DNA of 64,000 bases. It comes from Phenylobacterium sp. (GTDB lineage Bacteria; Pseudomonadota; Alphaproteobacteria; Caulobacterales; Caulobacteraceae). The notes beneath the pieces are model-generated. The model was not told where the DNA came from, did not search any database, and saw only the letters and a program-made list of their open reading frames with translations. The stretch is from positions 286,224 through 350,223 of the forward strand of contig NZ_JACESE010000002.1 of assembly GCF_013911965.1 (NCBI RefSeq), given 5' to 3'. Below, in pieces: positions 38,237 through 64,000 of the stretch (the first letter of the stretch is position 1; each line of letters begins with the position of its first letter). Both the position numbers and the translations under genes were made by a program.

Positions 38237-38326
38237 GGACGGGTGGCCGAGTGGTTTAAGGCAGCGGTCTTGAAAACCGCCGTGGGTTCACGCCCACCGT
38301 GGGTTCGAATCCCACCCCGTCCGCCA
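38237..38326 (+). tRNA. tRNA-Ser (UGA)
   Basis: A 90-nt tRNA with acceptor strands GGACGGG and CCCGTCC, discriminator G and encoded CCA. It has a D-arm (GGCCGAGTGGTTTAAGGC), the anticodon loop CTTGAAA (anticodon TGA) on a GCGGT/ACCGC stem, a long class II variable arm (CGTGGGTTCACGCCCACC region) and a T-arm with GGTTCGAATCC. It sits at the chromosome/element junction. Its 3' part overlaps the recombinase gene on the other strand, so the element probably supplies or shares the 3' end. Confidence 0.97.
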
Positions 38327-38358
38327 CTTCGGTATAAAACCGGGAACGCCGATTCCCG
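38288..38358. other. Candidate attachment-site arm at tRNA-Ser
   Basis: The 3' half of tRNA-Ser (38288-38326), plus an adjoining perfect inverted pair CGGGAA (38341-38346) and TTCCCG (38353-38358), lie at the boundary between chromosomal genes and the recombinase. Large serine recombinases recombine at short cores inside partly palindromic sites. I therefore place one end of the element here; the exact core is unknown because the other junction is outside the window. Confidence 0.5.
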
Positions 38359-49337: not shown

Positions 49338-49669
49338 CAGATGAGCGCCCCGCCGCCGAACGAAAAGAACGACAGGAAGAAGCTCGATGCGGCGAACGCG
49401 ATGGACAGGCCGAACACGATCTGAATCAACCGACGGAAGCCGCCGCTGGTGTCGCCGAAGGCCAGCGTCAGGCCGGTCACGATAATGATGATGACGGCGA
49501 TGATCTTGGCGACCGGCCCCTCAATGGACTGGAGGATGCTTTGGAGAGGCGCTTCCCACGGCATCGACGAGCCGGACGCATGAGCGGCCGGAGCGAGCAT
49601 GAGGCTGATGGCAAGGGTGGATGCAGCGGTCGCCATGCTGCGATAGCCGCGCGGAAGGGTGCGGATCAT
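49337..49669 (-). CDS. trbC: Conjugal transfer pilin precursor TrbC (VirB2 family)
   Basis: A 110-residue pilin precursor. A long signal sequence (RSMATAASTLAISLMLAPAAHA) is followed by SGSSMPWEAPLQSILQSIEGPVAKIIAV, the TrbC start, then two membrane helices separated by FGDTSGGFRRL. In the RP4 system the mature pilin is cyclised. It overlaps trbB by 4 nt and trbD by 1 nt. Confidence 0.93.
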   Translation of the reverse strand: MIRTLPRGYRSMATAASTLAISLMLAPAAHASGSSMPWEAPLQSILQSIEGPVAKIIAVIIIIVTGLTLAFGDTSGGFRRLIQIVFGLSIAFAASSFFLSFFSFGGGALI

Positions 49670-50649
49670 GAAGTTTCTCCTGTGCTGGTGGGGATTGCGG
49701 GGGTGATGCGGTAGTCGCCGTCCGGCCCCAGCCCTTCGACGCGGGCGAGTTCGGCCAGCCGGCGCGCGGAGCCGCGCCCGGACAGGACGGCAACAAGGTC
49801 GATGGTCTCGGCGATCAGTGCGCGCGGGACGGTGACGACAGCCTCTTGAATGAGCTGTTCAAGGCGACGGAGCGCGCCGATGCCGGTGCCGGCATGGATG
49901 GTGCCGATGCCGCCGGGGTGTCCTGTTCCCCAGGCTTTGAGCAGGTCGAGGGCTTCGGAACCGCGCACCTCGCCGATGGGGATGCGGTCGGGGCGCAGGC
50001 GCAGCGACGAGCGGACCAGATCGGAAAGCGTGGCGACGCCATCCTTCGTCCGCATGGCGACGAGGTTGGGCGCGGCGCATTGCAGTTCGCGCGTGTCCTC
50101 GATGATGACGACGCGATCCGCCGTCTTCGCCACCTCGGCGAGCAGCGCGTTGGTAAGCGTCGTCTTGCCCGTGCTGGTGCCGCCAGCAACGAGGATGTTG
50201 GCGCGGGAGGTGACGGCCGCGCGCAGCGTCGTCGCGTGATCGGCGGTCATGATGCCGGCGGCGACGTAATCGTCGAGCGTGAACACCGCGACAGCCGGCT
50301 TGCGAATGGCGAAGGCCGGCGCGGCGACCACGGGCGGCAACAGCCCCTCGAACCGCTCGCCGGTATCCGGCAGTTCGGCCGAGACGCGGGGGCTACGCGG
50401 ATGAACCTCCGCGCCGACGTGGTGCGCGACCAGCCGCACGATGCGTTCGCCATCGGCGGCGGACAGGCGCTCGCCCGTGTCGGCCAGCCCTTCGGACAGC
50501 CGGTCCACCCAAAGGCGGCCGTCCGGGTTCAACATGACCTCGACCACGGCCGGGTCTTCGAGAAGCCGGGCAATGGCTGGGCCGAGCGCGGTGCGCAACA
50601 TGCGCGCGCCGCGTGTGATGGCTTCCGCTCTGTGGTGGTTGGTAGTCAT
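49666..50649 (-). CDS. trbB: Conjugal transfer ATPase TrbB (VirB11 family)
   Basis: A 327-residue cytosolic hexameric ATPase. Walker A is in [19 protein letters not shown] (about 155), the Asp box in [12 protein letters not shown], Walker B with [27 protein letters not shown], then a His box in GTIHAGTG. It is the first gene of the trb operon, whose promoter should lie in 50,650-50,796, where a shared 22-bp motif occurs. Confidence 0.95.
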
Positions 50650-50796: not shown

Positions 50797-51258
50797 TTAC
50801 GCTTGATCGCCGTTGATCTCGGACTGATCCGGCGTTGAATCGTCGCGGAGTGAGTCGATGTCTCGCGACAGCTCTTTGAGGAACCTGTCGCCCGTCGCCA
50901 GACGCCGGCCGAGGGTCTGCATGAAGCCCTCAAAGCGTTCCGCGCCTTTTGTGCGGGCGGCGGATTGTGCGGTTCCTGAAAGCGGCGGCGTGATGGTCAG
51001 CCAGAAATGGATGAACTGCGCGACCGTCTCGCCGAGCACGGCGAGATCCAGGTCGAGCGTGTCGATCTGGCGGCCGAGCCTGTCCAGGCGGCGCGACATG
51101 GCTGCCTCAAGCTGGTCGGTGGAATCGCCGGACAGGTAAGACATGACAGCAGCCTCCACGATGGCGGATTTCGAGACCTTGCGGCGCAGCGCCAGTGTCT
51201 CGATCTGCGGCATGAGCGCGGGGTCGAAATAGAGATTCAGGCGGGTTCGGGTTGGCAT
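50797..51258 (-). CDS. CopG-type ribbon-helix-helix regulator
   Basis: A 153-residue protein. The N-terminal 45 residues (RTRLNLYFDPALMPQIETLALRRKVSKSAIVEAAV) form a CopG/MetJ ribbon-helix-helix DNA-binding domain, with the strand TRLNLYF as the reading strand. A long helical part follows (about 60-150) with a possible coiled coil. In related ICEs this gene lies next to traG and is regarded as a regulator of transfer. It starts 10 nt downstream of the traG stop and so is probably co-transcribed with it. Confidence 0.85.
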   Translation of the reverse strand: MPTRTRLNLYFDPALMPQIETLALRRKVSKSAIVEAAVMSYLSGDSTDQLEAAMSRRLDRLGRQIDTLDLDLAVLGETVAQFIHFWLTITPPLSGTAQSAARTKGAERFEGFMQTLGRRLATGDRFLKELSRDIDSLRDDSTPDQSEINGDQA

Positions 51259-51268
51259 GGGCGTGTCC

Positions 51269-53251
51269 TTACAGTTCGATTCCGTCGTCGGGATTCAGGG
51301 CGACCTGCCGCGCCACCATCCTCATGCGCTGGCGCATGGCGCGGGCCTTGGCTGCGTCAACGTCCGGCTCATCGTCCAGAAACTCGAACTCCTGTTCGGG
51401 CGGTGGCGGGGCGACGATTTCCTCATGCTCGGGCAATTCCGGCTCGCGGCGGATGCCGGCGTTGGCCGGATCGCCCTCGGCCGCGCTGGCGTCGCTCGTC
51501 GCGGAACGGCCGGCCGCCGCGACCACGCGGCTCGACCAATCGTCGGATGACGGGTGTGCGGCGGGATCGTCCGCCGGATCGGGCGGGGTCAGGATGCGTT
51601 CCTTGAACCGCGTGTCCTCGTAGTAGCGGGCTTTGGTCGCGCGGATCGGCGGCGTGCCCGCGACCATGACGATTTCTTCGGTGGGCGGAAGCTGCATGAT
51701 CTCGCCGGGCGTCATCAACGGCCGGGCGGTCTCCTGGCGCGACACCATCAAATGCCCCAACCATGGCGCGAGGCGATGGCCGGCGTAGTTGGTGGAATCG
51801 CGCAACTCGGTTGCGGTGCCGAGCGCGTCGCTCACCCGCTTGGCCGTGCGCTCGTCGTTCGTGGCAAAGCTGACGCGGACATGGCAGTTGTCGAGGATCG
51901 CGTTGTTCGGCCCATAGGCGCGCTCGATCTGGTTGAGGCTTTGCGCGATCAGGAAACCCTTGAGGCCGTAGCCCGCCATGAAAGCCAAGGCGGACTCGAA
52001 AAAATCCAACCTGCCGAGCGCGGGAAACTCGTCCAGCATCAAAAGCAAGCGATGGCGTTTGCCGGACGTATGCAATTCCTCGGTCAGTCGTCTGCCGATC
52101 TGGTTGAGGATCAGGCGGATGAGCGGTTTGGTGCGGTTTATGTCGGACGGCGGCACGACAAGGTAGAGCGTGACGGGTCGGCGGTTGCCGACCAGATCGG
52201 CAATGCGCCAGTCGCATCGTGCCGTTACCCGCGCCACCACTGGATCGCGGTAGAGGCCGAGAAAGGACATGGCGGTGCTCAACACGCCCGACCGTTCGTT
52301 CTCGGATTTGTTCAACAGCTCGCGGGCAGATGACGCGATGACGGGATGAACGCCCGCCTCGCCGAGATGCGGCGTATCCATCATGGCCCGCAAGGTTGCC
52401 TCGACCGGCCGGCGAGGGTCGGACAGGAAGTTGGCGACGCCCGCCAGGGTCTTGTCCTTCTCCGCGTAGAGGACATGCAGGATTGCGCCGACCAGCAGGC
52501 TATGGCTGGTCTTTTCCCAATGGTTGCGCTTGTCGAGGCTGCCTTCTGGATCGACCAGAATATCCGCGATGTTCTGCACGTCGCGGACTTCCCATTCGCC
52601 CTGCCGCACCTCCAGCAGCGGATTGTAGGCGGAGGATTTCACGTTGGTCGGATCGAACAGCAGGACGCGGCCGTGCTTTGCGCGGAAGCCGGCCGTCAAC
52701 GTCCAGTTCTCTCCTTTGATGTCGTGGACGATGCAGCTTCCCGGCCAGGTCAGCAGCGTCGGCACAACCAGACCGACGCCTTTGCCGCTGCGGGTCGGGG
52801 CGAAGCATAGGACGTGCTCGGGGCCGTCATGGCGCAGATAGTCGCGTTCGTGCTTGCCGAGCACGACGCCATCGGGGCCGAGCAGTCCGGCGGCGCGGAT
52901 TTCGCGATCTGCGGCCCATCGCGCCGATCCGTAGGTGGCGACGTTGCGCGCCTCCCGCGCCCGGATGATCGACATGAAGATGGCGGCGGCGATGGCGATG
53001 AAGCCGCCAGACGTGGCAATGGCCGCACCCTCCATGAAGATCGCGGGCGCATAGGCGTCGAACGAAAACCACCACCAGAAGAAAGCCGGCGGGTAATAGA
53101 CCGGCAGGCCGGCCAGCTCGAACCACGGATTGCCGAGTTGGGGCTGAAAGCCGAGGCGGAACGCTACCCATTGCGTCGCTGCCCACGTCATCACCAAAAC
53201 GATGGTGAAAACTACGGCGATCTGACCCCAAAGGATTCGGCATCCGCGCAA
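51269..53251 (-). CDS. traG: Type IV coupling protein TraG (VirD4 family)
   Basis: A 660-residue membrane ATPase that brings the relaxase-DNA complex to the mating channel. Two N-terminal helices (QIAVVFTIVLVMTWAATQW and a second region near 65-100) are followed by the TraG domain. Walker A is CFAPTRSGKGVGLVVPTLL, Walker B LLLMLDEFPALGR, and the conserved SLNQIERAYGPNNAILDNC segment is present. The start is a TTG at 53251 with GGAG 6-7 nt upstream, giving LRGCRILWGQI; the TTG at 53263 is less well placed. The C-terminus is acidic and probably disordered. Confidence 0.94.
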   Translation of the reverse strand: MRGCRILWGQIAVVFTIVLVMTWAATQWVAFRLGFQPQLGNPWFELAGLPVYYPPAFFWWWFSFDAYAPAIFMEGAAIATSGGFIAIAAAIFMSIIRAREARNVATYGSARWAADREIRAAGLLGPDGVVLGKHERDYLRHDGPEHVLCFAPTRSGKGVGLVVPTLLTWPGSCIVHDIKGENWTLTAGFRAKHGRVLLFDPTNVKSSAYNPLLEVRQGEWEVRDVQNIADILVDPEGSLDKRNHWEKTSHSLLVGAILHVLYAEKDKTLAGVANFLSDPRRPVEATLRAMMDTPHLGEAGVHPVIASSARELLNKSENERSGVLSTAMSFLGLYRDPVVARVTARCDWRIADLVGNRRPVTLYLVVPPSDINRTKPLIRLILNQIGRRLTEELHTSGKRHRLLLMLDEFPALGRLDFFESALAFMAGYGLKGFLIAQSLNQIERAYGPNNAILDNCHVRVSFATNDERTAKRVSDALGTATELRDSTNYAGHRLAPWLGHLMVSRQETARPLMTPGEIMQLPPTEEIVMVAGTPPIRATKARYYEDTRFKERILTPPDPADDPAAHPSSDDWSSRVVAAAGRSATSDASAAEGDPANAGIRREPELPEHEEIVAPPPPEQEFEFLDDEPDVDAAKARAMRQRMRMVARQVALNPDDGIEL

Positions 53252-53349
53252 TGCAGGCTCCAATCGGTAAAAGAGACGGAGCCGATCAGAGAGTAGGCAA
53301 AATCGGGACGGGCAACAGGAAAGGCGATGCGGGAGGACTGCCGGATACT

Positions 53350-53415: not shown

Positions 53416-54297
53416 CTAGCCTGATCGACTCATCTCGCCTGCAAGGTCGAGAAGGCTTCGGAGCGCAGGGCTACGGTTGTGCGGCGACCAGATTGCGGAG
53501 AACGGAAGCGGTTCCAACTCGTCGAGGATCGGCACGAAAGTCACGCCGGGCGCGTTCATCGGCGCTGTCGCTTCGCCGACGATGGTGACGCCGTAGCCCT
53601 GCGCGACCATGGACAGCAGCGTGCCGCGTTCGACATCGAAGCGCAGGATGGACAGGTTCGCGCATCTGCCCGCCAGGCGCTTGACGATGTGGTCATGCAC
53701 TTGGGGTCCGGTGCCGCCGTGCCGGACGATGAAGGTGTCACCCGCCAGATCGGCCCAGGTGACGCCTGCTCCCTCGGCGAGCGGATGGCGTGACGGCAGC
53801 GCGGCCAGCAGCCGTTCGCTCCATATCCGCCGGGAATGGCAGTCGGGAAACTCGGGCGTGCCTGCCACGAATGTCACGTCGAGCTGGTCGGCGCGAAGCT
53901 GCATGACGCTATCGCGGGCCGTGCCCTCGGCGATCTCGACCTCGATGCCCGGATGTCGTTCGCGGTATCGCTCAAGCAGGTTGGCGAGAAAGCTGCCGGG
54001 GATCAGGGCATGGATGCCGACGCGCAAGCTGCCGTGTTCGCCGCGCGCGACCATGCCGGCGGTCCTGACGGCATGGTCGAGATGGTCAATCCCGGTCGTC
54101 ACCCGCGCGACGAAATGCCGGCCGGCCTCGGTCAGCCGGACGCCCCGCGCATGGCGCTCGAACAGGAGGATGCCAAGGTCTTCCTCCAGCGCCTTCACGC
54201 GCGCGCTGACACTGGATTGCGCCACGCCGAGCGCGTTGGCGGCGTGACGAAAGTTCAGATATTGGGCGACGGCAAGCGCTTGGATGAGCGATGTCAT
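53416..54297 (-). CDS. LysR-family transcriptional regulator
   Basis: A 293-residue regulator. The N-terminal HTH (LIQALAVAQYLNFRHAANALG, then VAQSSVSARVKALEEDLGI) and the following wing identify LysR. The effector domain starts near residue 90 (GSLRVGIHALIPGSF). The effector is unknown. The start ATG at 54297 is the family-typical one although a ribosome site is weak; the frame continues upstream without matching the family. It lies 89 bp downstream of the MFS gene on the same strand, so it may be read with the operon. Confidence 0.88.
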   Translation of the reverse strand: MTSLIQALAVAQYLNFRHAANALGVAQSSVSARVKALEEDLGILLFERHARGVRLTEAGRHFVARVTTGIDHLDHAVRTAGMVARGEHGSLRVGIHALIPGSFLANLLERYRERHPGIEVEIAEGTARDSVMQLRADQLDVTFVAGTPEFPDCHSRRIWSERLLAALPSRHPLAEGAGVTWADLAGDTFIVRHGGTGPQVHDHIVKRLAGRCANLSILRFDVERGTLLSMVAQGYGVTIVGEATAPMNAPGVTFVPILDELEPLPFSAIWSPHNRSPALRSLLDLAGEMSRSG

Positions 54298-54386
54298 AGG
54301 AATGCGCGACCCCAGCGAGGTCGGCACTCCCTGTTGGCGGTCGATCAACGGTGGTGATTGTCGCCGCCTGCGCATCGGACACCGGC

Positions 54387-55640
54387 CTAACCGATCGGCA
54401 GGCGGCGGCTCGCTGCCCATATCAGGAGGGCGGCGGCGCTAAACGCCACCCCCAAAGCCGAAACGCCGGGCCAGCCCGCGAAGGCATAGGCCATGGTGGA
54501 GGCTATCGCTCCGGTCGCGCTTCCGATGGAATAAAACACCATGTAGCCGCCGACGAGGCGACTGCGCGCTTCCGGGTGGCGGTTGAAGATAATGCTCTGA
54601 TTGGTGACGTGGACCGCCTGCACCGCGAGGTCGAGAAGGACGATGCCGATAAGGAAGATCGGGATTGAGCAAGGGAGCAGCGCGATCAGCCCCCATGACG
54701 CCAGCAGCAGCAGGAGCGATATGCCGCTGGTCCACTGACCAAGCCCTCGATCCGCGAGCCTGCCCGCGCCAGTCGCTGCGAGCGCTCCGGTCATGCCGAC
54801 CAGACCGAACAGACCGATCTGCGTGTGCGAGTAGGAAAAAGGCGCGGCACTGAGCGGCAACACCAATGCCGTCCAGAGCGTGCTGAACGCGGCGAAGACA
54901 AGTAACGCCAGGAGGCCGCGAACGAGAAGTATCCGGTCTTGCAGGAACAGGATCGGCGTGGAACGCAGGATCGCGAGATAGCTATCTGTGCTGACCGATG
55001 GCCGGCCCGAAGGAAGGGCGCGCAGCAGGAGCAGCACCATGGCGAGCGTCAGGACGGCGGAGGTCATATAGACGGCTCGCCACCCTCCGAGATCGGCGAC
55101 CAGTCCGGCAACGAACCGGGCTCCGAGAATGCCGATCACGATGCCGCTCGTTACGATGCCGACAGTTGCACCGCGCTTTTCGGGGGGTGCGAGGGTTGCC
55201 GCGAAGGCGACGAGGATTTGAATGACGACCGCCATCAGGCCCATCGCCGCCAGACTGGCGAACAGCATCCCTGCTGATCCAGCCAGCGCAATGGAAACGA
55301 GGGCGATCACCGAGAGAAGGCTCTGGCCGGCTATCAATCGGCGGCGATCGACAATATCGCCGAGCGGAACAATGAAAATCAGCCCGAGGCCATAGCCGAC
55401 TTGCGTGAGCGTCACGACAAGGCCGATGGTCGCTGGGGCAATCGCGAAATCCCGCGCCATCGTGTCGAGTAACGGTTGGGCGTAGTAGGTGTTCGCAACG
55501 CTGAGTCCGGCGGCGAGTGCGAACAGCAGCGTGGCGGCCCTGGACAGACCGACTTCGGGCGCAGCCGATGAAACCGGCATCGGCCCGGTGGCGGGAGCGT
55601 ATTCAAGCTGCGGCGTTCCCATACCCTCACGAGATCGCAT
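54387..55640 (-). CDS. MFS transporter (DHA1-like efflux permease)
   Basis: A 417-residue permease with about twelve helices. The segment GLSVANTYYAQPLLDTMARDF and LGDIVDRRRLIAGQSLLS (the MFS loop 2-3) are typical of AraJ/YnfM-like exporters. VGIVTSGIVIGILGARFVAG is the motif C region of antiporters, which suggests export. It overlaps the hemA 3' end by 14 nt; a second ATG at 55622 with a closer GAGG is possible. In this operon the natural guess is export of a product or analogue related to aminolevulinate or PLP, but this is inference. Confidence 0.85.
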   Translation of the reverse strand: MRSREGMGTPQLEYAPATGPMPVSSAAPEVGLSRAATLLFALAAGLSVANTYYAQPLLDTMARDFAIAPATIGLVVTLTQVGYGLGLIFIVPLGDIVDRRRLIAGQSLLSVIALVSIALAGSAGMLFASLAAMGLMAVVIQILVAFAATLAPPEKRGATVGIVTSGIVIGILGARFVAGLVADLGGWRAVYMTSAVLTLAMVLLLLRALPSGRPSVSTDSYLAILRSTPILFLQDRILLVRGLLALLVFAAFSTLWTALVLPLSAAPFSYSHTQIGLFGLVGMTGALAATGAGRLADRGLGQWTSGISLLLLLASWGLIALLPCSIPIFLIGIVLLDLAVQAVHVTNQSIIFNRHPEARSRLVGGYMVFYSIGSATGAIASTMAYAFAGWPGVSALGVAFSAAALLIWAASRRLPIG

Positions 55641-56901
55641 CGGCGTTCTCCCGCATGGAAACGTGGATGTCGGGTTGCGCAGCCGCCGTCAGTTCCGTCC
55701 AGCGGGGAAAGGCTCCACGCGCCGAGACCAGCGCCGCGATCAAGGTGTCCTCGTCCTCGTCGGTGTGCAGCGGCGTCGGCGTGATCCGCAACCGTTCAGT
55801 TCCGCGCGGCACGGTCGGATAGTTGATCGGCTGAATGTAGATTCCATCCTCGGCCATGAGCCGGTCGGTGATCGCTTTCGCGAGCGCCGCGTCGCCGATC
55901 ATGACCGGCAATATATGGCTTGGACTCGGCAGGACCGGGATGCCGTTCGCGAGCATCTTTGCCTTGAGGGAGGCCGCGCGTCTTGCGAGGGCAGCGCGCG
56001 CGGAACCGTCTTCCTTCAGTTGATCCAGCGCCGCGCGAATGCCGGAAACGACCGAGGGCGGCAGAGCGGTGGAGAAAATGAAGCCGGGAGCGTGGCTGCG
56101 GACGAAATCGACCGCATCGCGACTGCCGGCGATATAGCCGCCGATGGCTCCGAAGCCCTTACTGAGCGTGCCCTGGAACATGTCGATGCGGTCGAGCAGG
56201 CCATCGCGCTCCGCCACGCCGGCCCCACGCGCGCCATAGAGGCCGACCGCATGGACTTCATCGACATAGGTGAACGCGCCGTGCCGTCGCGCGACATCGC
56301 AGATCGCTTCCATGGGAGCGAAATCGCCATCCATGGAATAGCAGCTCTCGAAACATATGATCTTGGGCCGGTATTTGCAGACGGAAGCGATCTGCCGTTC
56401 GAGGTCGCGCCAGTCGTTGTGCCTGAATATCCGCTTGTCGGCGCCTGAGTGGCGGATGCCCTCGATCATCGACGCATGATTGAGTTCGTCCGAAAAGATC
56501 ACGCAGCCGGGCAGAAAGCGGCCGAGCGATGACAGGGCGGCGTCGTTCGCCACATAGCCGGACGTGAACAGCAAGGCGGATTCCTTGCGGTGCAGGTCCG
56601 CCAGCTCTCCTTCGAGCAGAACATGCTCATGGGTCGTCCCGGAGATGTTGCGCGTGCCGCCCGCGCCCGCGCCATATCGTTCCAGCGCGGCACCTGCCGC
56701 GCGGATGACATCGGGATGAGCGCCCATCGCCAGATAGTCGTTGGAGCACCAGACCGTGACGCGTCGGCCTGTGCGGTGGTCATAGGCATGGACGCCGCTA
56801 TGCGAATCCCGTTCAAGATCGGCGAAGACACGATAGCGCCCCTCGCGTCGCAGGTTTTGCAGCGTTTCGGCGAAGCAGGAGTCAAAATCGAAGCCGTTCA
56901 T
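55627..56901 (-). CDS. hemA: 5-aminolevulinate synthase
   Basis: A 424-residue PLP-dependent enzyme that condenses glycine with succinyl-CoA to form 5-aminolevulinate, the first step of haem synthesis in alphaproteobacteria. Family blocks are VTVWCSNDYLAMGAHP, GAGGTRNISGTTHEHVLLE, FSDELNHASMIEGIRHSG, ESCYSMDGDFAPMEAICD, YVDEVHAVGLYG, the PLP lysine in GTLSKGFGAIGGYIAG and IQPINYPTVPRGTERLR. The last block is specific to ALAS rather than other oxoamine synthases. A chromosomal hemA is expected elsewhere, so this is probably a second copy. It begins 8 nt after the pdxY stop. Confidence 0.93.
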   Translation of the reverse strand: MNGFDFDSCFAETLQNLRREGRYRVFADLERDSHSGVHAYDHRTGRRVTVWCSNDYLAMGAHPDVIRAAGAALERYGAGAGGTRNISGTTHEHVLLEGELADLHRKESALLFTSGYVANDAALSSLGRFLPGCVIFSDELNHASMIEGIRHSGADKRIFRHNDWRDLERQIASVCKYRPKIICFESCYSMDGDFAPMEAICDVARRHGAFTYVDEVHAVGLYGARGAGVAERDGLLDRIDMFQGTLSKGFGAIGGYIAGSRDAVDFVRSHAPGFIFSTALPPSVVSGIRAALDQLKEDGSARAALARRAASLKAKMLANGIPVLPSPSHILPVMIGDAALAKAITDRLMAEDGIYIQPINYPTVPRGTERLRITPTPLHTDEDEDTLIAALVSARGAFPRWTELTAAAQPDIHVSMRENADAIS

Positions 56902-56909
56902 GGGTTCCG

Positions 56910-57737
56910 TCAATCGGGTTGCGTGGCAACTTGCGCCGCCATCGGGGAAAGACACATCTCATCCGCGCCGGCCTGCAGTGTGCGCTCCAGCACCCGGTAT
57001 GTGCCTTCGACAGCGCGGCGCAGCGCGGTTTCAACATCGGTGCCCTTCGCCACATGAGCGGCGACAAGGCCGCTCAGGAGGTCGCCCGTCCCGCATGGGC
57101 GGATCGGCAGGCGCGGTGTGGCGATGCGCGTCATCAGTCCATTCGCGCAAAGAACCGTCTCGACCTGGCCGGCCGGCGTATCGGCGAGCGTGCATCCGGT
57201 TGCGATCACTGCCGGTCGCCCGCCGTGCGCTATCCCATCGCTGGCCGTTAGAAGCCCCGCCGTGTCGCGCGCCTTCGTCCCGGCCAGAAGCTCCAGCTCG
57301 AACTGGTTGGGCGTGACGATCGAGGCGAGCGGAACGAGTTGGTCGCGGAATATGTCCGTCAAACCGTCCGCGACGAAGACGCCGAGGTCGTCATCGCCCA
57401 TGACGGGATCGCAGAGATAGACGAGGTTTGGATTGTGCTTCCGGGCGGTCGCGACGAACCGCGCCACATGCCCGGCAATCGTCGGCGAGCCGAGATAGCC
57501 GGTCAGCAGCACCGTTGCGCGCTCGACCAGCCCACGTTCCTCGACTCCGCGCAGCAGGTCCGCCACCAGCCCGGCGTCCAGCACCGTGCCCCGCATCGTC
57601 GAATAGTGGGGATGATTGGAAAGCAATGCGGTGGGAACGGCCGCCACCGTCACGCCTTCGGCCTGCATGGGATAGACTGCGGCGCTGTTGCCGACATGGC
57701 CGTGGACGACCTGGCTCTGAATTGAGATGACCAGCAT
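56910..57737 (-). CDS. pdxY: Pyridoxal kinase
   Basis: A 275-residue ribokinase-fold enzyme that phosphorylates pyridoxal to PLP. The N-terminus VISIQSQVVHGHVGNSAAVYP is diagnostic. Other blocks are TALLSNHPHYSTMRG, LTGYLGSPTIAGHV, LCDPVMGDDDLGVFV, IVTPNQFELELLAG and the anion hole with the catalytic Asp RPCGTGDLLSGLV. It overlaps the yggS stop by one base. Its product is the cofactor of the HemA and GlyA encoded next to it. Confidence 0.93.
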   Translation of the reverse strand: MLVISIQSQVVHGHVGNSAAVYPMQAEGVTVAAVPTALLSNHPHYSTMRGTVLDAGLVADLLRGVEERGLVERATVLLTGYLGSPTIAGHVARFVATARKHNPNLVYLCDPVMGDDDLGVFVADGLTDIFRDQLVPLASIVTPNQFELELLAGTKARDTAGLLTASDGIAHGGRPAVIATGCTLADTPAGQVETVLCANGLMTRIATPRLPIRPCGTGDLLSGLVAAHVAKGTDVETALRRAVEGTYRVLERTLQAGADEMCLSPMAAQVATQPD

Positions 57738-58471
57738 CAGGCCGTCCCTGCCGCGCCCGGCCAGTAATGGGAATCGGGAAGCGGCCGGGCACCGAACACC
57801 GCTTGGCCGACCCGGACGATGGTAGCGCCTTCCTCGATCGCCCAGGCGTAATCGCCCGACATGCCCATCGAGAGGTCGGCAAGTTTCGCACCCTGCGGAG
57901 CTTCCACCAGCGCGCGATCTCGTATGCCGCGCAGCAGGCGGAAACAGCGACGCACCTCCGCCTCATCGGGCGTGAAGGTGGCAAGCGTCATGAAGCCCTT
58001 GGGGCGCAGCGCGTCGAAGGCGTGCAATTCCCGCAGGAACGCAGGCACGTCCTCGGGTGAAAGGCCATATTTGCTGGCTTCGCCCGATGTGTTGACCTGC
58101 ACCAGCACGTCGAGGCCATGCCCGAGAAGCTGGAGCCGTTTTTCGAGCGCGGTCGCCAGAGAGAGACGATCGAGCGACTGCACCTCGCGCGCGAAGCGCA
58201 GCGCATCCTTCACCTTGTTGCTCTGGAGATGACCGATCATCGTCCAGCGGATAGGCTCGCCGGTCAGGGCTTCCGCCTTCCTGCGCCCCTCCTGCACCTT
58301 GTTCTCGCCGAGGTCGGTCGCGCCCGCGCGGACGGCTTCCAGCACCCGTTCAGCCGCCACGGTCTTCGTCACGAGGACGAAGCGCACCGCGTCCGGCGAG
58401 CGTTCCGACCGCGCTGCGGCGTCGGCGATCTTCTGCCGGACGACTGCGAGATTGGCGGCGACATCAGCCAT
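57737..58471 (-). CDS. yggS: YggS/PLPBP pyridoxal phosphate homeostasis protein
   Basis: A 244-residue PLP-binding protein without known catalysis that buffers PLP. The PLP lysine is in [11 protein letters not shown] (about residue 36). Other family blocks are [74 protein letters not shown]. The ATG at 58471 overlaps the glyA stop by 8 nt and has GGAGG upstream; earlier in-frame starts (58483, 58486) are possible. Confidence 0.94.
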
Positions 58472-59711
58472 CCGTCCCTCCATCAATCGGCCAGGCGTCG
58501 GTTAGCCGGCGAACCCGGTCGCGCACCGACGGGCCGGGCTCGTGCCCGGCGCGAAGCGCGCCAAGCACCTCCAGAATCAGCGCGCCGACTTCGCGAAAGG
58601 CCGCTTCGTCGAATCCGCGCGAGGTCGCGGCGGGCGTGCCGAGGCGGATACCGGAGGTGACGGTCGGCGGCAGCGGGTCGAACGGAACGGCATTCTTGTT
58701 GGCGGTCAGACCGAAGCGTTCGAGAGCTTCGACCGCCGCCTTGCCGGTGACGCCGAAAGGCTGGAGATCGACCAGCAGGAGATGACAGTCGGTGCCGCCG
58801 GTGACGAGGCGCAGTCCGCCCGCCATGAGCACGTCGCCCAGCGCCTGTGCATTGGCGACAACGGCGCGGGCATAGTCGCCGAACGCAGGTTGAAGCGCTT
58901 CATGGAAGCTCACGGCCTTCGCGGCGATGACGTGCATGAGCGGGCCGCCCTGCGTGCCGGGAAACACGGCCTTGTCGATCTTCTTCGCCAGCGCCGCATC
59001 GTTGGTGAGGATCAGCCCGCCGCGCGGTCCCCTGAGCGTCTTGTGCGTGGTGGAGGTGACGACATGCGCATGAGGCACGGGGTTGGGATAGAGCCCGGCA
59101 GCGATCAGCCCGGCATAGTGCGCCACGTCCGCGACCAGCCAAGCGCCGGCCGCGTCGGCGATGGCGCGCATGCGCGCGAAGTCGATCTCGCGCGGATAGG
59201 CGGAGCCGCCAGCGAAGATCAGGCGCGGCCTGGCGTCACGGGCAAGACGGTCCAACTCGTCATAGTCGATCCGTTCGTCATCCTCGCGCACGCTGTAAGG
59301 TGCGACCTCGAACCACCGTCCCGACAGGCTGACGGGCGATCCGTGCGTCAGGTGGCCGCCGCAGGCGAGATCGAGCCCCATGATCCGGTCGCCCGGATCG
59401 AGCAGCGCGAACAGGACAGCGATGTTGGCGTTCGCGCCCGAATGGGGTTGCACATTGGCATGGGCCGCTCTGAACAGCCTGCCGGCCCGGTCGATGGCGA
59501 GCTGCTCGACCCTATCGACCGCCTCGCAGCCGCCATAGTAGCGGCGGCCGGGATAGCCCTCGGCATATTTGTTGGTGAGGATCGAGCCTTGCGCGGCCCG
59601 CACTTGCGCGCTGACGATGTTCTCCGACGCGATCAGCTCGATATGATCCTGCTGCCGTCTTGCTTCCTGCCCGATGGCGATGGCGAGTTCGCTGTCGACC
59701 GCTGCTGTCAT
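58464..59711 (-). CDS. glyA: Serine hydroxymethyltransferase
   Basis: A 415-residue PLP enzyme that converts serine and tetrahydrofolate to glycine and methylene-tetrahydrofolate. The blocks are [91 protein letters not shown], the PLP lysine in [13 protein letters not shown], and [22 protein letters not shown] replaces the usual DMAHVAG, a small departure beside the cofactor. As a housekeeping copy is expected elsewhere, this is an accessory paralogue. It overlaps its neighbours on both sides and supplies glycine for HemA. Confidence 0.93.
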
Positions 59712-60412
59712 TGCGCCAGCCCCTGCAACCATTCGGTCAGCATCTTGCGCGCCGCGTCGCGCAAGGCCGGGCCGAACCGCTGGGCATCCTCGCGCAAGGC
59801 GCGCGGATCGACGCCCGCCGACGCCAGCTCGGCGGCGTGGCCGACCAGCCAGCGTTCGATGCCGGCGCAGGCGTCCACCTCGGGATGAAACTGGAGGCCG
59901 AGGACGTTCCGGCCGCGCGCGAAGCCCTGCGTCGCGCAAAGCGCCGTCGTTGCGAGATTCTCGGCGTCTTCGGGGGTTTGGAAGGCGTCGCCGTGCCAGT
60001 GCAGCACGGAGACGCCTTCCAGATGCCTGAGCGGCCCAACCCGCCCGGCATCGGTCAGGGTCAGCTCCGAAAAGCCGATTTCCTTGATTCCGCTCGGCGC
60101 GACCTTCGCGCCGAGCGTCGCCGCGATCTGCTGCGCGCCAAGGCAGATGCCCAGGGTCGGACGATCCGCGTCCAACCGTGCTTCTAGTATCTGCCGTTCT
60201 TCGGCCAGGAACGGATAGGCGTCCGTCTCATATACCCCCACCGGGCCGCCGAGCACGACGAGCAGATCGGCAAGCGGGGGGTCGAGCGTCCAAAGGTCAT
60301 GCACGCCGAGATCGTAATAGTGAATCCTGTAGCCAGCGGCCGTAAGCACGGCCTCGAAGGTTCCGAGATCCTCGAAATGAACATGCCGGATGGCGACCGC
60401 CGTTTTCAGCAT
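59708..60412 (-). CDS. Class I glutamine amidotransferase-like protein
   Basis: A 234-residue triad-type glutaminase fold. The nucleophile elbow is [15 protein letters not shown] (Cys about 97), and the His is in [18 protein letters not shown]. The upstream segment [20 protein letters not shown] resembles GuaA-like stand-alone amidotransferases (YfeJ type) rather than PdxT, which is smaller and different at this segment. No ammonia-accepting partner is adjacent. The ATG at 60412 has a GGGGAG 8 nt upstream. It overlaps glyA by 4 nt. Confidence 0.82.
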
Positions 60413-60438
60413 GGCGGGGGCTCCCCTCGACATGGCGG

Positions 60439-60675
60439 TCAGCGCAGCGCCGAAAGATCGGCACCGTGATTGATATGATAGACAGCTCCGGCGATGACGA
60501 GCGCGGGAACAGATTTCACGCCGGCTTGCTCGGCTTCATCGATGCGGCCCTTGCTCTCGCCAAGGTGGACGACCTCGACGTCATAGAGGCTCTTGTCGAG
60601 GGCACCGGCAAATCGCTGCTCGGCATCGACGCACACTGAACATCCGGCGTGATAGAACACTGCTTTCTCGGCCAT
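60439..60675 (-). CDS. Small thioredoxin-like protein with CSVC motif
   Basis: A 78-residue protein with a glutaredoxin/thioredoxin-like fold: KAVFYHAGCSVCVDAEQRF carries a CxxC redox motif at about residues 11-14, and VKSVPALVIAGAVYHINHGADL contains the cis-Pro (SVPAL) segment. It is shorter than a normal thioredoxin. The ATG at 60675 has AAGGA 7 nt upstream. It is the first gene of the PLP/aminolevulinate operon, facing the MocR regulator across 113 bp. Confidence 0.75.
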   Translation of the reverse strand: MAEKAVFYHAGCSVCVDAEQRFAGALDKSLYDVEVVHLGESKGRIDEAEQAGVKSVPALVIAGAVYHINHGADLSALR

Positions 60676-60742
60676 GCTTCGTTCCTTCTCTCTCGGCCTC
60701 GGCGCGATTGCGCCGGCCTTCCTCCCATGCAATAGCTTCTAT

Positions 60743-60791
60743 CCGGCCTATTCAGGAGTGCCGGTTTGTCGAAAGTGGGTAGGCCGGTTTG
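60743..60791. promoter_or_regulatory. Candidate MocR operator between the divergent genes
   Basis: The region between the thioredoxin-like gene and the MocR gene contains an inverted pair CCGGCCTA (60743-60750) and TAGGCCGG (60780-60787), plus a direct repeat GCCGGTTTG at 60760-60768 and 60783-60791, 23 bp apart. MocR/PdxR-family regulators often use spaced direct and inverted repeats about two helical turns apart. The function is inferred from position and repeat pattern; no binding evidence exists here. Confidence 0.6.
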
Positions 60792-62237
60792 GGAAAGCGT
60801 GGCGACATCTCGATCGAGTTGACGGAAGACGGCGGACAGCCGGTTTTCCTCAACCTTGCTACGACCCTCATCCGTGAGATCGAGCGCGGTCGCCTGAAGC
60901 CTGGCGATGCCTTGCCAGGCACGCGCACAATGGCGCGGAACCTCGGACTTCACCGCAACACGGTCGATGCGGCCTATCAAGAATTGACCATGCAGGGCTG
61001 GCTCGTATCCGAGCCGTCGCGCGGCACGTTTGTCGCGCGCGACCTGCCGGACATCGCACCGACTCGCGGCAGGAGGCGCAATCGCGTTCCAGCCAAGACC
61101 GTGGAGACAGGAAAGAACGCGCCGCCGCCGCTGCGTGTATCGGACGGCGCACCGGATTCCAGGCTCATGCCACGCGCCGAGCTGGCGCGGGCGTTCCGTC
61201 GTGCGCTCTCCGCGCCCGCCTTCCTGTCGGACGGGGGCTATGGCGATCCGCGCGGCGCGCTTACTCTGCGCACAGCCCTCGCAGATTATCTCGGGGTTGA
61301 GCGGGGTCTGACAGTTTCCCCGGCCGATCTGCTGGTGACGCGCGGGAGCCAGATGGGACTGTTCCTCGCCGCCTCCGCAATCATCGAACCAGGAGAAGCC
61401 ATTGCGGTGGAGCAGCCGGGTTATCCGCTCGCCTGGGCGGCTTTCCGCGCGGCGGGAGCAAAGGTGGTCGGCGTGCCCACCGATGCCCAAGGAATCGACG
61501 TGACGGGTCTTGAGCGTATTGCCGACCGGGAGCCTTCGCTGAAGGCGGTCTATGTCACGCCCCATCATCAATATCCGACCACGGTGACGCTAGGCGCGGG
61601 CCGCAGGCTGAAGCTGCTCGATGTCGCGCGCCGTCGCGGGCTGACGATTGTCGAGGACGACTACGATCACGAATACCGCTTCGACGGTCGTCCCGTCCTG
61701 CCGCTGGCGGGACGCGCCGAGGCGGAGTTGCCCGTCATCTATGTCGGCTCACTTTCCAAGCTGCTCGCTCCGGCCGTCCGCGCTGGATATGTGACGGCGC
61801 GACCAGACCTGCTCGCTCGTATGGCCTATCGCCGCGAAGCCATCGACCGGCAGGGCGATCTGCCGCTCGAACAGGCGCTCGCGAGTCTGATCGAGGACGG
61901 GACGCTGCGCCGGCACGCTCGCAAGGCCCGCCGCATCTATCAGTCTCGGCGAGACCATCTTGCGGGGGAATTGATCGACAGGCTCGGCGATGACGTGACT
62001 TTCGACGTTCCCGCTGGCGGCCTTGCCATCTGGCTCAGGCTGCGGGCCGGTCTCAGCGCCGAAACATGGGCAGCCAACGCCCATCGCTCGGGTCTGGCGG
62101 TAACGCCCGGTTTGCAGTTCGCGCTCGACGCCGCGAGCGCGCCGGAGGCGTTTCGGATCGGCTACGCCAGCCTGGACGAAAAGGAACTGACGCGCCTTGT
62201 CGGCCTGTTCGCGCGAACGCGGCCAGGATCGCGCTAG
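60789..62237 (+). CDS. MocR/PdxR-like regulator (GntR HTH fused to aminotransferase fold)
   Basis: A 482-residue regulator. The N-terminal winged helix (LIREIERGRLKPGDALPGTRTMARNLGLHRNTVDAAY) is GntR-type. A linker leads to a type I aminotransferase-like domain from about residue 110: LLVTRGSQMGLFLAASAII, YVTPHHQYPTTVTL, IVEDDYDHEYRFDGRP and the PLP lysine in GSLSKLLAPAVRAGY. Such proteins sense PLP or amine-PLP adducts. The start appears to be the TTG at 60789, because a TAG stop lies at 60780. It is divergent from the PLP operon and is the likely regulator. Confidence 0.9.
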   Translation: MGKRGDISIELTEDGGQPVFLNLATTLIREIERGRLKPGDALPGTRTMARNLGLHRNTVDAAYQELTMQGWLVSEPSRGTFVARDLPDIAPTRGRRRNRVPAKTVETGKNAPPPLRVSDGAPDSRLMPRAELARAFRRALSAPAFLSDGGYGDPRGALTLRTALADYLGVERGLTVSPADLLVTRGSQMGLFLAASAIIEPGEAIAVEQPGYPLAWAAFRAAGAKVVGVPTDAQGIDVTGLERIADREPSLKAVYVTPHHQYPTTVTLGAGRRLKLLDVARRRGLTIVEDDYDHEYRFDGRPVLPLAGRAEAELPVIYVGSLSKLLAPAVRAGYVTARPDLLARMAYRREAIDRQGDLPLEQALASLIEDGTLRRHARKARRIYQSRRDHLAGELIDRLGDDVTFDVPAGGLAIWLRLRAGLSAETWAANAHRSGLAVTPGLQFALDAASAPEAFRIGYASLDEKELTRLVGLFARTRPGSR

Positions 62238-62250
62238 GCGCATCGCATCT

Positions 62251-63111
62251 TCAGGCAAAGCGCTTGGCACCCGCTACGCACCCGACAACGATCACGGTTG
62301 ACGCGATCATGGTCCAGGCGATCGGCTCGCCGAGGAAGATCGCTGCCTGCAGAAATCCGAAAAAGGGCTGGAGAAGCTGCAACTGGCCGACGCCCGCGAT
62401 GCCGCCAAGCGCAAGGCCCCGATACCAGAATATGAAGCCGACCATCATGCTGAAGATCGAAACGTAGGCGAGGCCGATCCACGCCGGAACGCCGACATTG
62501 CTCCACGTATGAGGCAGGGTGAGCAGCGCGATTGCGGCCATGATCGGCAACGACAGCAACAACGCCCATGAGATAACCTGCCAGCCGCCAAGACGGCGCG
62601 AAAGTATCGCCCCTTCCGCATAGCCCATGCCGCAGACAAGAATGGCCGCGATCATGAGCAGGTCGCCCGTCAGCGTTCCTTCATTGCTTCCATAGAGTGC
62701 AAAGCCGGCGACCGCCGCCGCCCCGGCAACAGAAAACAACCAGAAAGCGGGCTTTGGCCGCTCGCCTCCGCGTAGCACGCCAAAGATCGCGGTCGCGAGC
62801 GGGAGCAGTCCGATGAAGACGATAGAATGGGCGGCGGTGATATGCTGAAGCGCCAGCGCCGTCAGAAGTGGAAAGCCGACGACACCGCCAATCGCCACCA
62901 ATGTAAGCGGAAAGATGTCATGTCGTTCCGGCCGTGTCTGGCGAAGGGCGAACAGGAACACCGCGCCGAGTAACGCGGCGATTACTGCCCGCGCGGAGGT
63001 CAGAAACATCGGCGAAAAGTCCGCGACTGCAACGCGCGTGGCCGGCAGCGACCCACTGAATATGATGACGCCTAAGAGGCCGCTGCCCCAACCCGCAGTC
63101 GTTCGTTCCAT
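62251..63111 (-). CDS. EamA/DMT-family transporter
   Basis: A 286-residue permease with about ten helices in two repeated EamA halves (for example GVIIFSGSLPATRVAVADFSP and MIAAILVCGMGYAEGAILSR). The family exports amino acids and other metabolites. It converges on the MocR gene (14 bp apart) and is divergent from the second MocR gene. Export of a compound controlled by that regulator is inferred. Confidence 0.85.
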   Translation of the reverse strand: MERTTAGWGSGLLGVIIFSGSLPATRVAVADFSPMFLTSARAVIAALLGAVFLFALRQTRPERHDIFPLTLVAIGGVVGFPLLTALALQHITAAHSIVFIGLLPLATAIFGVLRGGERPKPAFWLFSVAGAAAVAGFALYGSNEGTLTGDLLMIAAILVCGMGYAEGAILSRRLGGWQVISWALLLSLPIMAAIALLTLPHTWSNVGVPAWIGLAYVSIFSMMVGFIFWYRGLALGGIAGVGQLQLLQPFFGFLQAAIFLGEPIAWTMIASTVIVVGCVAGAKRFA

Positions 63112-63175: not shown

Positions 63176-63226
63176 ATACAATTATGACGAATTGTATTGG
63201 TAAACTAAGCCACACAGTTGTGTGGC
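63176..63226. promoter_or_regulatory. Two palindromes between EamA and second MocR gene
   Basis: ATACAATT (63176-63183) and AATTGTAT (63190-63197) form a perfect inverted repeat with a 6-bp spacer. GCCACAC (63209-63215) and GTGTGGC (63220-63226) form a second perfect inverted repeat with a 4-bp spacer. Both sit in the 133-bp divergent intergenic region, the natural place for a MocR binding site and two promoters. Function is inferred. Confidence 0.6.
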
Positions 63227-63244
63227 AGAGCTGGATTGAGCGGT

Positions 63245-64000
63245 ATGGGAACGCGGACAGAAGTGCTGATGAACGCCGTTCGCACCAAGATCGCGAACAG
63301 GGCGCTCGGGCCGGGGGATCGCTTGCCATCGGTTCGCCGCTTCGCTGAAACGATGGGCGTTTCCCCCTCCACCGTCGTCGAGGCTTATGATCGGCTGGAA
63401 GCGGAAGGGGTTATCCGTGCCCGGCGAGGTTCGGGCTTCTTTGTAACCGGCGCTCACCTGCCACCGATGGCCTTGGCAGAGATGGGACCGTCGCGCGAGC
63501 GCGATGTCGATCCATTTTGGGTATCCAAGCAGTCACTTGATGCTGATTCGTCCGTGCTCAAGCCTGGCTGTGGGTGGCTCCCTTCCGACTGGATGCCAAA
63601 TGCCGCGCTTCGCAGAGGACTGAGGGCGCTCAGCCGTGCTGACGATACGCTGCTGTCCGATTATGGGAGCACACGCGGTTCGCTCGCCCTGCGTCGCCTA
63701 CTACTCAGCCGGTTCACCGATGAAGGCATCACGGCGACGGCGGATCAGATAATGCTGACTGCCTCGGGAACGCAGGCGATCGACCTAATATGTCGCCTTC
63801 TATTGCGGCCTAACGATACCGTTCTCGTCGATGATCCTTGCTACTTCAATTTCCAAGCACTTTTGCGCGCGCATCAGGTCAACATCGTCGGCGTTCCTTT
63901 TACACCCACTGACCTGACCCCCAGCCTTCCCCCAGCTGGGATTAGAGCCGGGCGGTTGTTTTGCGCATGCGCGCGGTTGAAGCAATGGGCTGTGCAGCGG
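63245..64000 (+). pseudogene. Second MocR-family regulator, apparently interrupted near 63,910
   Basis: A GntR-type N-terminus (MGTRTEVLMNAVRTKIANRALG, then VRRFAETMGVSPSTVVEAYDRLE) and the first part of an aminotransferase domain (LLSDYGSTRGSLALRRLLL, IMLTASGTQAIDLICRLLL and LVDDPCYFNFQALLRAHQV). Family sequence stops after IVGVPFTPT. The expected GPDLxxFE-type continuation is absent, and from 63910 the frame reads DLTPSLPPAGIRAGRLFCACA, which is unlike MocR. The gene therefore seems broken by an insertion; the frame is still open at the window edge. Confidence 0.65.
63910..64000. mobile_element. Possible end of an insertion sequence (IS3-like terminus)
   Basis: At 63910 the MocR coding sequence gives way to TGACCTGACCCCC, a TG-start, C-rich end like the inverted repeats of many IS3-family elements. 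The next 80 bases are unlike the MocR gene and hold no complete gene. No transposase is visible because the window ends. The assignment rests on loss of family sequence plus the terminus pattern. Confidence 0.4.

Follow-up and report, generated by a model that had tools for sequence, protein, structure and literature searches.

A mobile operon of Phenylobacterium joining a PdxR-type MocR regulator, pyridoxal phosphate supply and spare PLP enzymes

Gene content of the operon and its regulator

The window analysed here, a stretch of 64,000 nucleotides from a Phenylobacterium genome (3.86 Mb, 33 contigs), carries on its minus strand an operon with the gene order thioredoxin-like, glutamine amidotransferase (GATase), glyA, yggS, pdxY, hemA and major facilitator superfamily (MFS) transporter, and on its plus strand a divergent mocR gene. 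Downstream, the operon is followed by lysR and, further on, by traG, copG and trbB of a conjugative element. The seven operon genes, lysR and mocR had been named in an earlier reading of the sequence alone (the sequence-only reading), and every one of them is present in its place.

The first gene (60439-60675, minus strand, as all operon genes; longer start at 60732) encodes a small CxxC protein whose thioredoxin-like assignment is weak, with 23.1 bits against PF13192, just below the cut-off of 24.8. Firm family calls were obtained for the class I GATase (59708-60433; NF005458, 320 bits, cut-off 250), the serine hydroxymethyltransferase (SHMT) encoded by an accessory copy of glyA (58464-59711; PRK00011, 591 bits; PF00464, 517.5 bits), the pyridoxal 5′-phosphate (PLP) homeostasis protein YggS of COG0325 (57737-58486; TIGR00044, above cut-off), the pyridoxal kinase PdxY (56910-57737; TIGR00687, above cut-off) and the hemA product (55627-56901, longer start at 56955; TIGR01821, 584 bits, cut-off 339), whereas the MFS gene (54387-55640) scored 120.5 bits against PF07690. 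PLP-lysine motifs were found in MocR, HemA and GlyA and a kinase motif in PdxY. By profile score and motif, HemA is a 5-aminolevulinate synthase (ALAS) by family.

With the chosen starts, the distances between neighbouring genes from the thioredoxin-like gene to the MFS gene are 5, -4, -23, -1, 8 and -14 bases, the last being the 14-base overlap of hemA and the MFS gene, and the value of -23 becomes -8 with a later yggS start. The proposal of one coupled unit thus holds for these seven genes but not clearly for the lysR gene beside traG (53416-54297, minus strand; PF03466/PF00126), because a gap of 89 bases separates it from the MFS gene unless a longer lysR start (54420) is used, which produces an overlap instead. 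Its membership of the operon is therefore uncertain.

The mocR gene (60789-62237, plus strand) encodes a GntR domain and a class I aminotransferase domain (Aminotran_1_2) and reaches 343.7 bits against the PdxR model NF052282 (cut-off 320), in agreement with the PLP-sensing type of regulator suggested before; such a protein would be predicted to read PLP. It stands divergent from a PLP salvage gene, the pdxY of the operon, and the space that separates mocR from the operon holds a three-part repeat, CCGGCCTA-N15-CYGGMNC-N7-TRGGCC (60745-60787, minus strand), which is the probable MocR operator. MocR operators have been described as repeats spaced by helical turns (PMC5320631; here and throughout, statements on published work refer to the parts of the cited papers that were available). 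Among 20 loci scanned (loci of other genomes and plasmids are given as L numbers), the repeat was exact with the same spacing in seven by a strict pattern; by eye, one half-site is changed in L007, L027, L029 and L042 and two in L006, while L023, L030 and L033 hold it partially. It was not found in L026, L087, L092, L095 and L108 of the same 20. The pattern, which was built from the site itself, matched once in the window and not at all in 100 shuffles. Directly behind mocR and convergent with it lies an EamA-type exporter gene (62251-63111, minus strand), followed by a second GntR/MocR-like gene, recognised by eye (63218-64000, plus strand), that runs past the end of the contig.

Searches of the same genome with hemA, glyA, yggS and pdxY revealed a further hemA (55-56% identical) and a further glyA (65%) near each other on contig 23, and a further yggS (42%) on contig 17. 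Hence, the earlier view that the operon holds second copies of housekeeping genes, which would have fallen with sole copies of hemA and glyA, stands for hemA, glyA and yggS. It does not extend to pdxY, because the only other match is weak (30%); the pdxY of the window is the only clear pyridoxal kinase gene found in the genome. ALAS matches at E ≤ 1e-100 were present in 44 of 58 sampled genomes of the class, and only two of the 44, this genome included, had two. The operon is rare: with at most four scored candidates listed per genome, a window-type MocR (E ≤ 1e-110) appeared among the listed matches in 1 of 385 sampled genomes of the class, which is this one.

In a HemA tree of 35 rows (five accessory proteins, the chromosomal one of this genome, one from Sphingomonas and 28 sampled loci out of 29, with L130 dropped for a stop in the match), the five accessory HemA proteins of the window, L005, L010, L023 and L027 share one side of a long-stemmed branch supported at 100/100, and the chromosomal HemA is placed elsewhere. 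Scan matches without a locus were left out of this tree, and its bootstrap was not fully settled. From this branch, the hemA of the window belongs to an accessory lineage of its own and did not arise recently by duplication of the chromosomal copy.

Recurrence of the gene set and its place on a conjugative element

To cover relatives of the operon, PdxY was scanned across a collection of 84,980 species genomes and the best 80 of 405 loci were kept. A gene was scored as present when its tblastn score exceeded limits set by ourselves (e.g. 200 bits for GATase, 400 for glyA, 400 for hemA and 60 for the thioredoxin-like gene), so that relatives below them, such as a GATase of 31% identity in L032, were not counted. 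In L005 it is a second copy of MocR that reaches the limit, the first being in pieces. A window-type MocR was found in 13 of the 80 pdxY loci, together with GATase in 9, glyA in 10, the thioredoxin-like gene in 7, yggS in 8, hemA in 4 and the MFS gene in none. Under the same limits, GATase, glyA, hemA and the thioredoxin-like gene were absent from all of the other 67 loci, five of which contained yggS. Within the 80 loci these four genes thus occur only with MocR, and the operon is not a chance assembly; a chance assembly would, on the terms set by the sequence-only reading itself, have counted against its proposal.

A relative in Xanthobacter sp. NM-59 (L005) is 94.5% identical to the operon on the DNA level across 5,105 bases, and the Agrobacterium fabrum plasmid pAtl-11c, typed as conjugative in PLSDB, reaches 85-86%. 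Only this plasmid and the window have the MFS gene with the operon (91% relative). The match to the MFS gene in pAtl-11c is full-length, while hemA of this plasmid is reduced to its last third (L085:18896-19301, residues 291-422 of the window protein), located between pdxY and the MFS gene. A metagenome-assembled genome of Hyphomicrobiales (L010) shows the order GATase-yggS-pdxY-hemA-catalase-lysR-traG, with a LysR relative (73%) at the same place as in the window. In the Brevundimonas locus L027, one of the four MocR loci with hemA, this gene lies about 4 kb away beside another MocR. There (L027:10057-13840), a second, plasmid-type MocR (60% identical to that of plasmid pBYT5-1) and yggS are divergent from the accessory hemA, near a PdxR-trx-glyA-pdxY set.

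GATase matches on plasmids in contexts without MocR (L089, L093, L094, L096 and L097) and glyA matches inside sarcosine oxidase clusters were set aside. Genes of the MOSC/YiiM kind were also considered as a sign of N-hydroxy detoxification and dropped, since they occur in 4 of the 13 MocR loci but also in 6 of the 67 others. A MarR regulator, an AhpD-like peroxidase and a redoxin recur beside MocR/GATase loci (L006:1757-3726, L110:5930-7965 and L087:2693-6102; MarR and redoxin of L110 by eye).

The mobile context that had been assumed for the operon was found in the form of traG-copG-trbB in IncP/Trb-type order together with a site-specific recombinase, as in integrative conjugative elements; since the contig ends at 64000, the element is visible in part only. 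Its backbone, on the minus strand, comprises the traG coupling protein gene (51269-53263; 64% to the annotated TraG of pBYT5-1, 89% in L010), a gene for a CopG-type protein (50797-51258; 73% in L010, same order as annotated in L095) and the gene of the conjugation ATPase TrbB (49666-50649; 90% in L010, 50% to the annotated trbB of pAtl-11c). One probable end of the element is marked by a serine recombinase gene (38288-39943, minus strand; PF00239, PF07508, PF13408) that overlaps a tRNA-Ser gene (38237-38326), and this tRNA-Ser region (38237-39943) is the probable integration site.

A sister cargo was detected on pKAZ5 and on two Pseudomonas plasmids from sludge and wastewater, pBYT1-1 and pBYT5-1, with MocR divergent from BenE-YggS-(GNAT)-GATase-PdxK-class III aminotransferase-TrpB-TrpA-GlyA-LysR; the GATase and YggS of pKAZ5 were assigned by comparison. 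On pBYT1-1 and pBYT5-1, LysR is followed by EexN and TraG, i.e. the sister cargo occupies the same slot of the element. Both cargos follow the same logic of PLP supply plus spare PLP enzymes, but other family members are used (MocR 32%, kinase 36% and LysR 30% identical), and in place of HemA the sister cargo encodes TrpBA and a class III aminotransferase. With parts so distant, a similar set of PLP genes seems to have been assembled on more than one occasion. The common theme is PLP supply with spare PLP enzymes and not aminolevulinate. LysR was rejected as a fixed part, because a comparison of the two cargo types gives only about 30% identity for the lysR genes at this position. On an Azospirillum plasmid (L108:5029-8702), BenE (87%) is divergent from a sister-cargo-type MocR (70%), after which comes a GATase with 71% identity to that of the window.

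Relation to the dnf cluster and AurF/DnfA-type oxygenases

The dnf cluster of Alcaligenes, dnfT1RT2ABCD, makes hydroxylamine and N2 from ammonia (dirammox) and is annotated with a SerC-type transaminase, MocR, SHMT, the diiron N-oxygenase DnfA, the 2Fe-2S protein DnfB, the GATase DnfC and the B6 kinase DnfD (PMC9136411); DnfA resembles AurF and CmlI at 28-30% (PMC9478400). MocR, SHMT, GATase and B6 kinase are shared with the operon of the window. No counterpart of dnfA, dnfB or the SerC-type gene is part of this operon, to which yggS, hemA, the thioredoxin-like gene and the MFS gene belong in addition. It is also mobile, whereas dnf has been reported as inherited within Alcaligenes and not transferred (PMC9136411). 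A yggS gene located elsewhere in the Alcaligenes genome is raised together with dnfABC (PMC8629993). The GATase of the window is probably of the DnfC kind, judged from its closest sequence of solved structure (9xfs, E 3.4e-71) and from a fold search with a weak predicted structure, whose top row was 8khs, DnfC of Alcaligenes. In a GATase tree, the three labelled GATases adjacent to oxygenases scatter among those of the module.

Several relatives of the operon adjoin AurF/DnfA-type genes. Next to the window-type operon of L005 comes a second MocR, divergent from a thioredoxin-like gene, GATase, a yggS remnant, an AurF-family gene (176.5 bits) and a ferredoxin-domain gene, so that this locus (L005:3993-15365) appears as a window-type operon and a dnf-like set in tandem, the first mocR copy being in pieces. 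In Aureimonas (L033), MocR is divergent from trx-GATase-MOSC-glyA-pdxY-LysR, with a convergent AurF-family gene (166 bits) and a reductase gene. The search from the oxygenase side gave matches in 3 of 385 genomes of the class, all of one genus (taken as Tistrella) and all with MocR divergent from GATase-glyA-oxygenase-reductase (MocR 29%, GATase 58% to those of the window), and in 2 of 398 genomes of the phylum, L164 and L165. In L164, MocR, glyA, an AurF-family oxygenase, a DnfB-like gene and GATase adjoin BenE-YggS-aminotransferase-GlyA, which are 80-87% identical to the sister cargo. On a Pantoea plasmid (L123:6420-12203) and in L165:6611-12533, an oxygenase about 60% identical to that of L005 lies in an acetyltransferase-hydrolase-MFS-oxygenase-reductase-ATP-grasp cluster, which looks like a small-molecule cluster.

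Relatives of pyruvic oxime dioxygenase (POD) were found near three of the 13 MocR loci (L006, L007 and L026), two of them nearly identical. For the L006 protein, the best solved structures were 8IL8, 8IQA and 8IX6, which have been identified as POD (PMC11841055). In L006:8819-12068 and L026:6965-11348, the POD relative and an L-lactate permease gene (in L006 also a DapA-like gene) lie beside a PdxR-type MocR and pdxY. A POD or oxygenase neighbour was counted at 5 of the 13 MocR loci vs 0 of 67, or at 4 of 12 when L006 and L007 are counted once because they are 96.7% identical across 13.3 kb; as the queries were picked after viewing the module loci, the Fisher values are descriptive.

In the Phenylobacterium genome itself, no close relative of the L005 oxygenase was found (E ≤ 1e-3, L005 oxygenase as query, which does match other genomes). 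Distant AurF-family genes exist elsewhere in it (four matches, two above the cut-off), but they were rejected as partners, since no GATase, MocR or GlyA was seen by eye around the best of the four.

A proposed protection of PLP enzymes and rival explanations

We propose that the operon is a mobile module under control of a PdxR-type MocR and that this module maintains the activity of PLP enzymes in the presence of hydroxylamine or other reagents that trap PLP, and we consider the chances of this reading to be about even. Several observations support it: the hydroxylamine-making dnf cluster holds MocR, SHMT, GATase and a B6 kinase beside its oxidase genes, relatives of the operon, of its GATase-GlyA core and of the sister cargo adjoin AurF/DnfA-type genes, and DnfC is the top row of the fold search with the weak GATase model. 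The pyridoxal aldehyde reacts with hydroxylamine, which inhibits several PLP enzymes and has also been listed as an inhibitor of catalase (PMC7277093), and in yeast ALAS it converts PLP to inactive PLP-oxime (PMC7077987); in L010, the catalase gene directly follows hemA. Alcaligenes strains withstand hydroxylamine at levels inhibitory to many other genera (PMC9355588), and strain JQ135 and its dnfA deletion mutant have the same hydroxylamine IC50 of 2.5 mM, the tolerance being ascribed to unknown mechanisms (PMC11440038). In nitrifying A. faecalis, a yggS gene is up (logFC 3.30) together with POD and dnfABC (PMC8629993). A module that senses PLP, makes it again and supplies spare GlyA and HemA fits such a need for tolerance.

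For regulation, toxic agent and the single tolerance roles, we infer the following course. The PLP aldehyde would be trapped, most likely by hydroxylamine or an N-hydroxy or aminooxy relative, and the loss of PLP as oxime would be read by MocR, which would turn the operon on. PdxY could then re-make PLP from pyridoxal, YggS might handle or deliver it, and fresh copies of GlyA and HemA would substitute for exposed PLP enzymes that have been poisoned. Glutamine synthetase meeting hydroxylamine forms gamma-glutamyl hydroxamate, which a DnfC-type GATase could hydrolyse, and the MFS protein, itself not a regular member of the set, might export an adduct. For DnfC, hydrolysis of glutamine and of glutamate gamma-hydroxamate has been described (PMC11440038). 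As a more tentative extension, which we regard as possible but hold with less than even confidence, the PLP half of the dirammox set (MocR, SHMT, GATase and B6 kinase), enlarged by YggS, HemA, TrpB or further spare PLP enzymes, may be an immunity to hydroxylamine as an interbacterial weapon, split from the oxidase genes, portable on conjugative elements and built at least two times from different family members in the same slot.

A number of results weigh against hydroxylamine as the agent. Profile scans of the operon proteins revealed neither a DnfA-type diiron oxygenase nor a DnfB reductase (for the latter, the rest of the genome was not searched); with no close relative of the L005 oxygenase in the genome and no oxygenase in the operon, the operon is not itself a maker of hydroxylamine. 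The AurF-family gene was not seen in 11 of the 13 MocR loci within the available stretch, and the likeness of the neighbouring oxygenases to DnfA runs via the AurF family (PF11583). The MocR proteins of L164 (32%) and Tistrella (29%) are not close to that of the window, L165 carries a Pantoea-type cluster without MocR or GATase, and among the three plasmid records examined, out of 11 with an oxygenase relative, Tistrella has MocR-GATase-GlyA while Pantoea and Burkholderia glumae do not. POD had to be rejected as a regular partner, as none of the five POD loci that came from 385 evenly sampled genomes had the module. The structure behind the DnfC match is a poor model (pLDDT 42.6) and was used solely for reading entry titles. 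Furthermore, DnfC is required for hydroxylamine production in Alcaligenes (PMC11160463), so that the GATase alone might release hydroxylamine rather than remove it. The same paper takes the SHMT and aminotransferases of dnf as a hint of biosynthesis.

The same mechanism with a different agent, i.e. tolerance to another PLP poison (a natural carbonyl reagent or substrate analogue of the cycloserine, hydrazine, canaline or aminooxy type, or damage by 2-aminoacrylate), is a rival reading that we consider unlikely. Cycloserine, canaline and hydrazine are PLP poisons. According to the title of PMC7065518, 2-aminoacrylate has GlyA as its primary target. The duplication of TrpB and a class III aminotransferase in the sister cargo is what a broad attack on PLP enzymes would lead one to expect, some MocR regulons have been proposed to answer damage caused by PLP enzymes (PMC5320631), and a RidA gene directly follows GATase in L097; yet no RidA was found in the operon of the window by the profile scans of its proteins, and the repeated AurF/DnfA-type neighbours and the DnfC-type GATase would stay unexplained. 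Plain PLP homeostasis, in which a PdxR regulon on an element brings pyridoxal salvage to a host without a clear pyridoxal kinase and loads extra GlyA and HemA, we consider doubtful. It would account for PdxY as the one clear kinase that the genome search turned up, for a regulator above the PdxR cut-off and for kinase, GlyA, COG325, amidotransferase and BioF-family genes as predicted members of PdxR regulons (PMC5320631), but neither for the travelling GATase and several PLP enzymes nor for the AurF/DnfA-type neighbours and the rarity of the window-type MocR among genomes of the class.

Readings centred on hemA fare worse. A supply of heme for oxidative-stress enzymes, with HemA feeding catalase and an OxyR-like LysR, appears improbable: the order pdxY-hemA-catalase-lysR in L010 would suit it, as would the presence of genes for AhpD-like proteins, redoxin and catalase in the vicinity of several relatives, whereas the profile scans found no catalase in the operon itself and hemA was not found in 9 of the 13 MocR loci. 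To the synthesis and export of aminolevulinate or a natural product derived from it we give hardly any credence, in spite of the overlap of hemA with the MFS gene and the separate HemA clade, since the operon has no recognisable tailoring enzymes in the profile scans, hemA and the MFS gene are missing in 9 and 13 of the 13 MocR loci, respectively, and pAtl-11c retains a full-length MFS gene beside a hemA remnant. The sequence-only reading had drawn attention to the path from glycine to aminolevulinate; the low constancy of hemA, its remnant in pAtl-11c and the TrpBA and class III aminotransferase in its stead in the sister cargo speak against this path as the purpose of the operon. Overproduction of aminolevulinate or tetrapyrroles was dropped, because hemA is among the least constant genes (4 of 13 MocR loci, only the MFS gene being rarer), and neither overproduction nor export of aminolevulinate found support. 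Of the options then offered, resistance to an antimetabolite comes nearest, and its general idea of resistance to something that attacks PLP enzymes is supported.

Protection of PLP enzymes against hydroxylamine or a similar reagent would concern a gene set that is not categorically new. It was largely foreseen as content of PdxR regulons, for which pdxK, GlyA, COG325 (YggS), a GuaA-family amidotransferase and the BioF family were predicted by Suvorova and Rodionov (2016, PMC5320631) and which share kinase, GlyA, YggS and amidotransferase with the operon, and it overlaps with dnf (PMC9136411), so that the earlier statement that no such system had been described was too strong. The available text of PMC5320631 does not mention hemA, thioredoxin, plasmid, hydroxylamine or mobile genetic element. 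In the parts of the open-licence literature covered, we did not find the mobile form with HemA, the occupation of one slot by two parallel cargos, the adjacency of these cargos to AurF/DnfA-type genes or the reading as transferable tolerance, nor a paper linking the operon or the PLP genes of dnf to hydroxylamine tolerance.

How hydroxylamine makers survive their own product has been stated to be unknown (PMC11440038). If the proposal is true, the SHMT and aminotransferase genes of dnf would serve protection, as an alternative to the biosynthesis reading, and this protection could travel alone. A function would then be available for a predicted group of PdxR regulons, and tolerance would be achieved by duplicates of the enzymes that are poisoned, combined with the supply of their cofactor.

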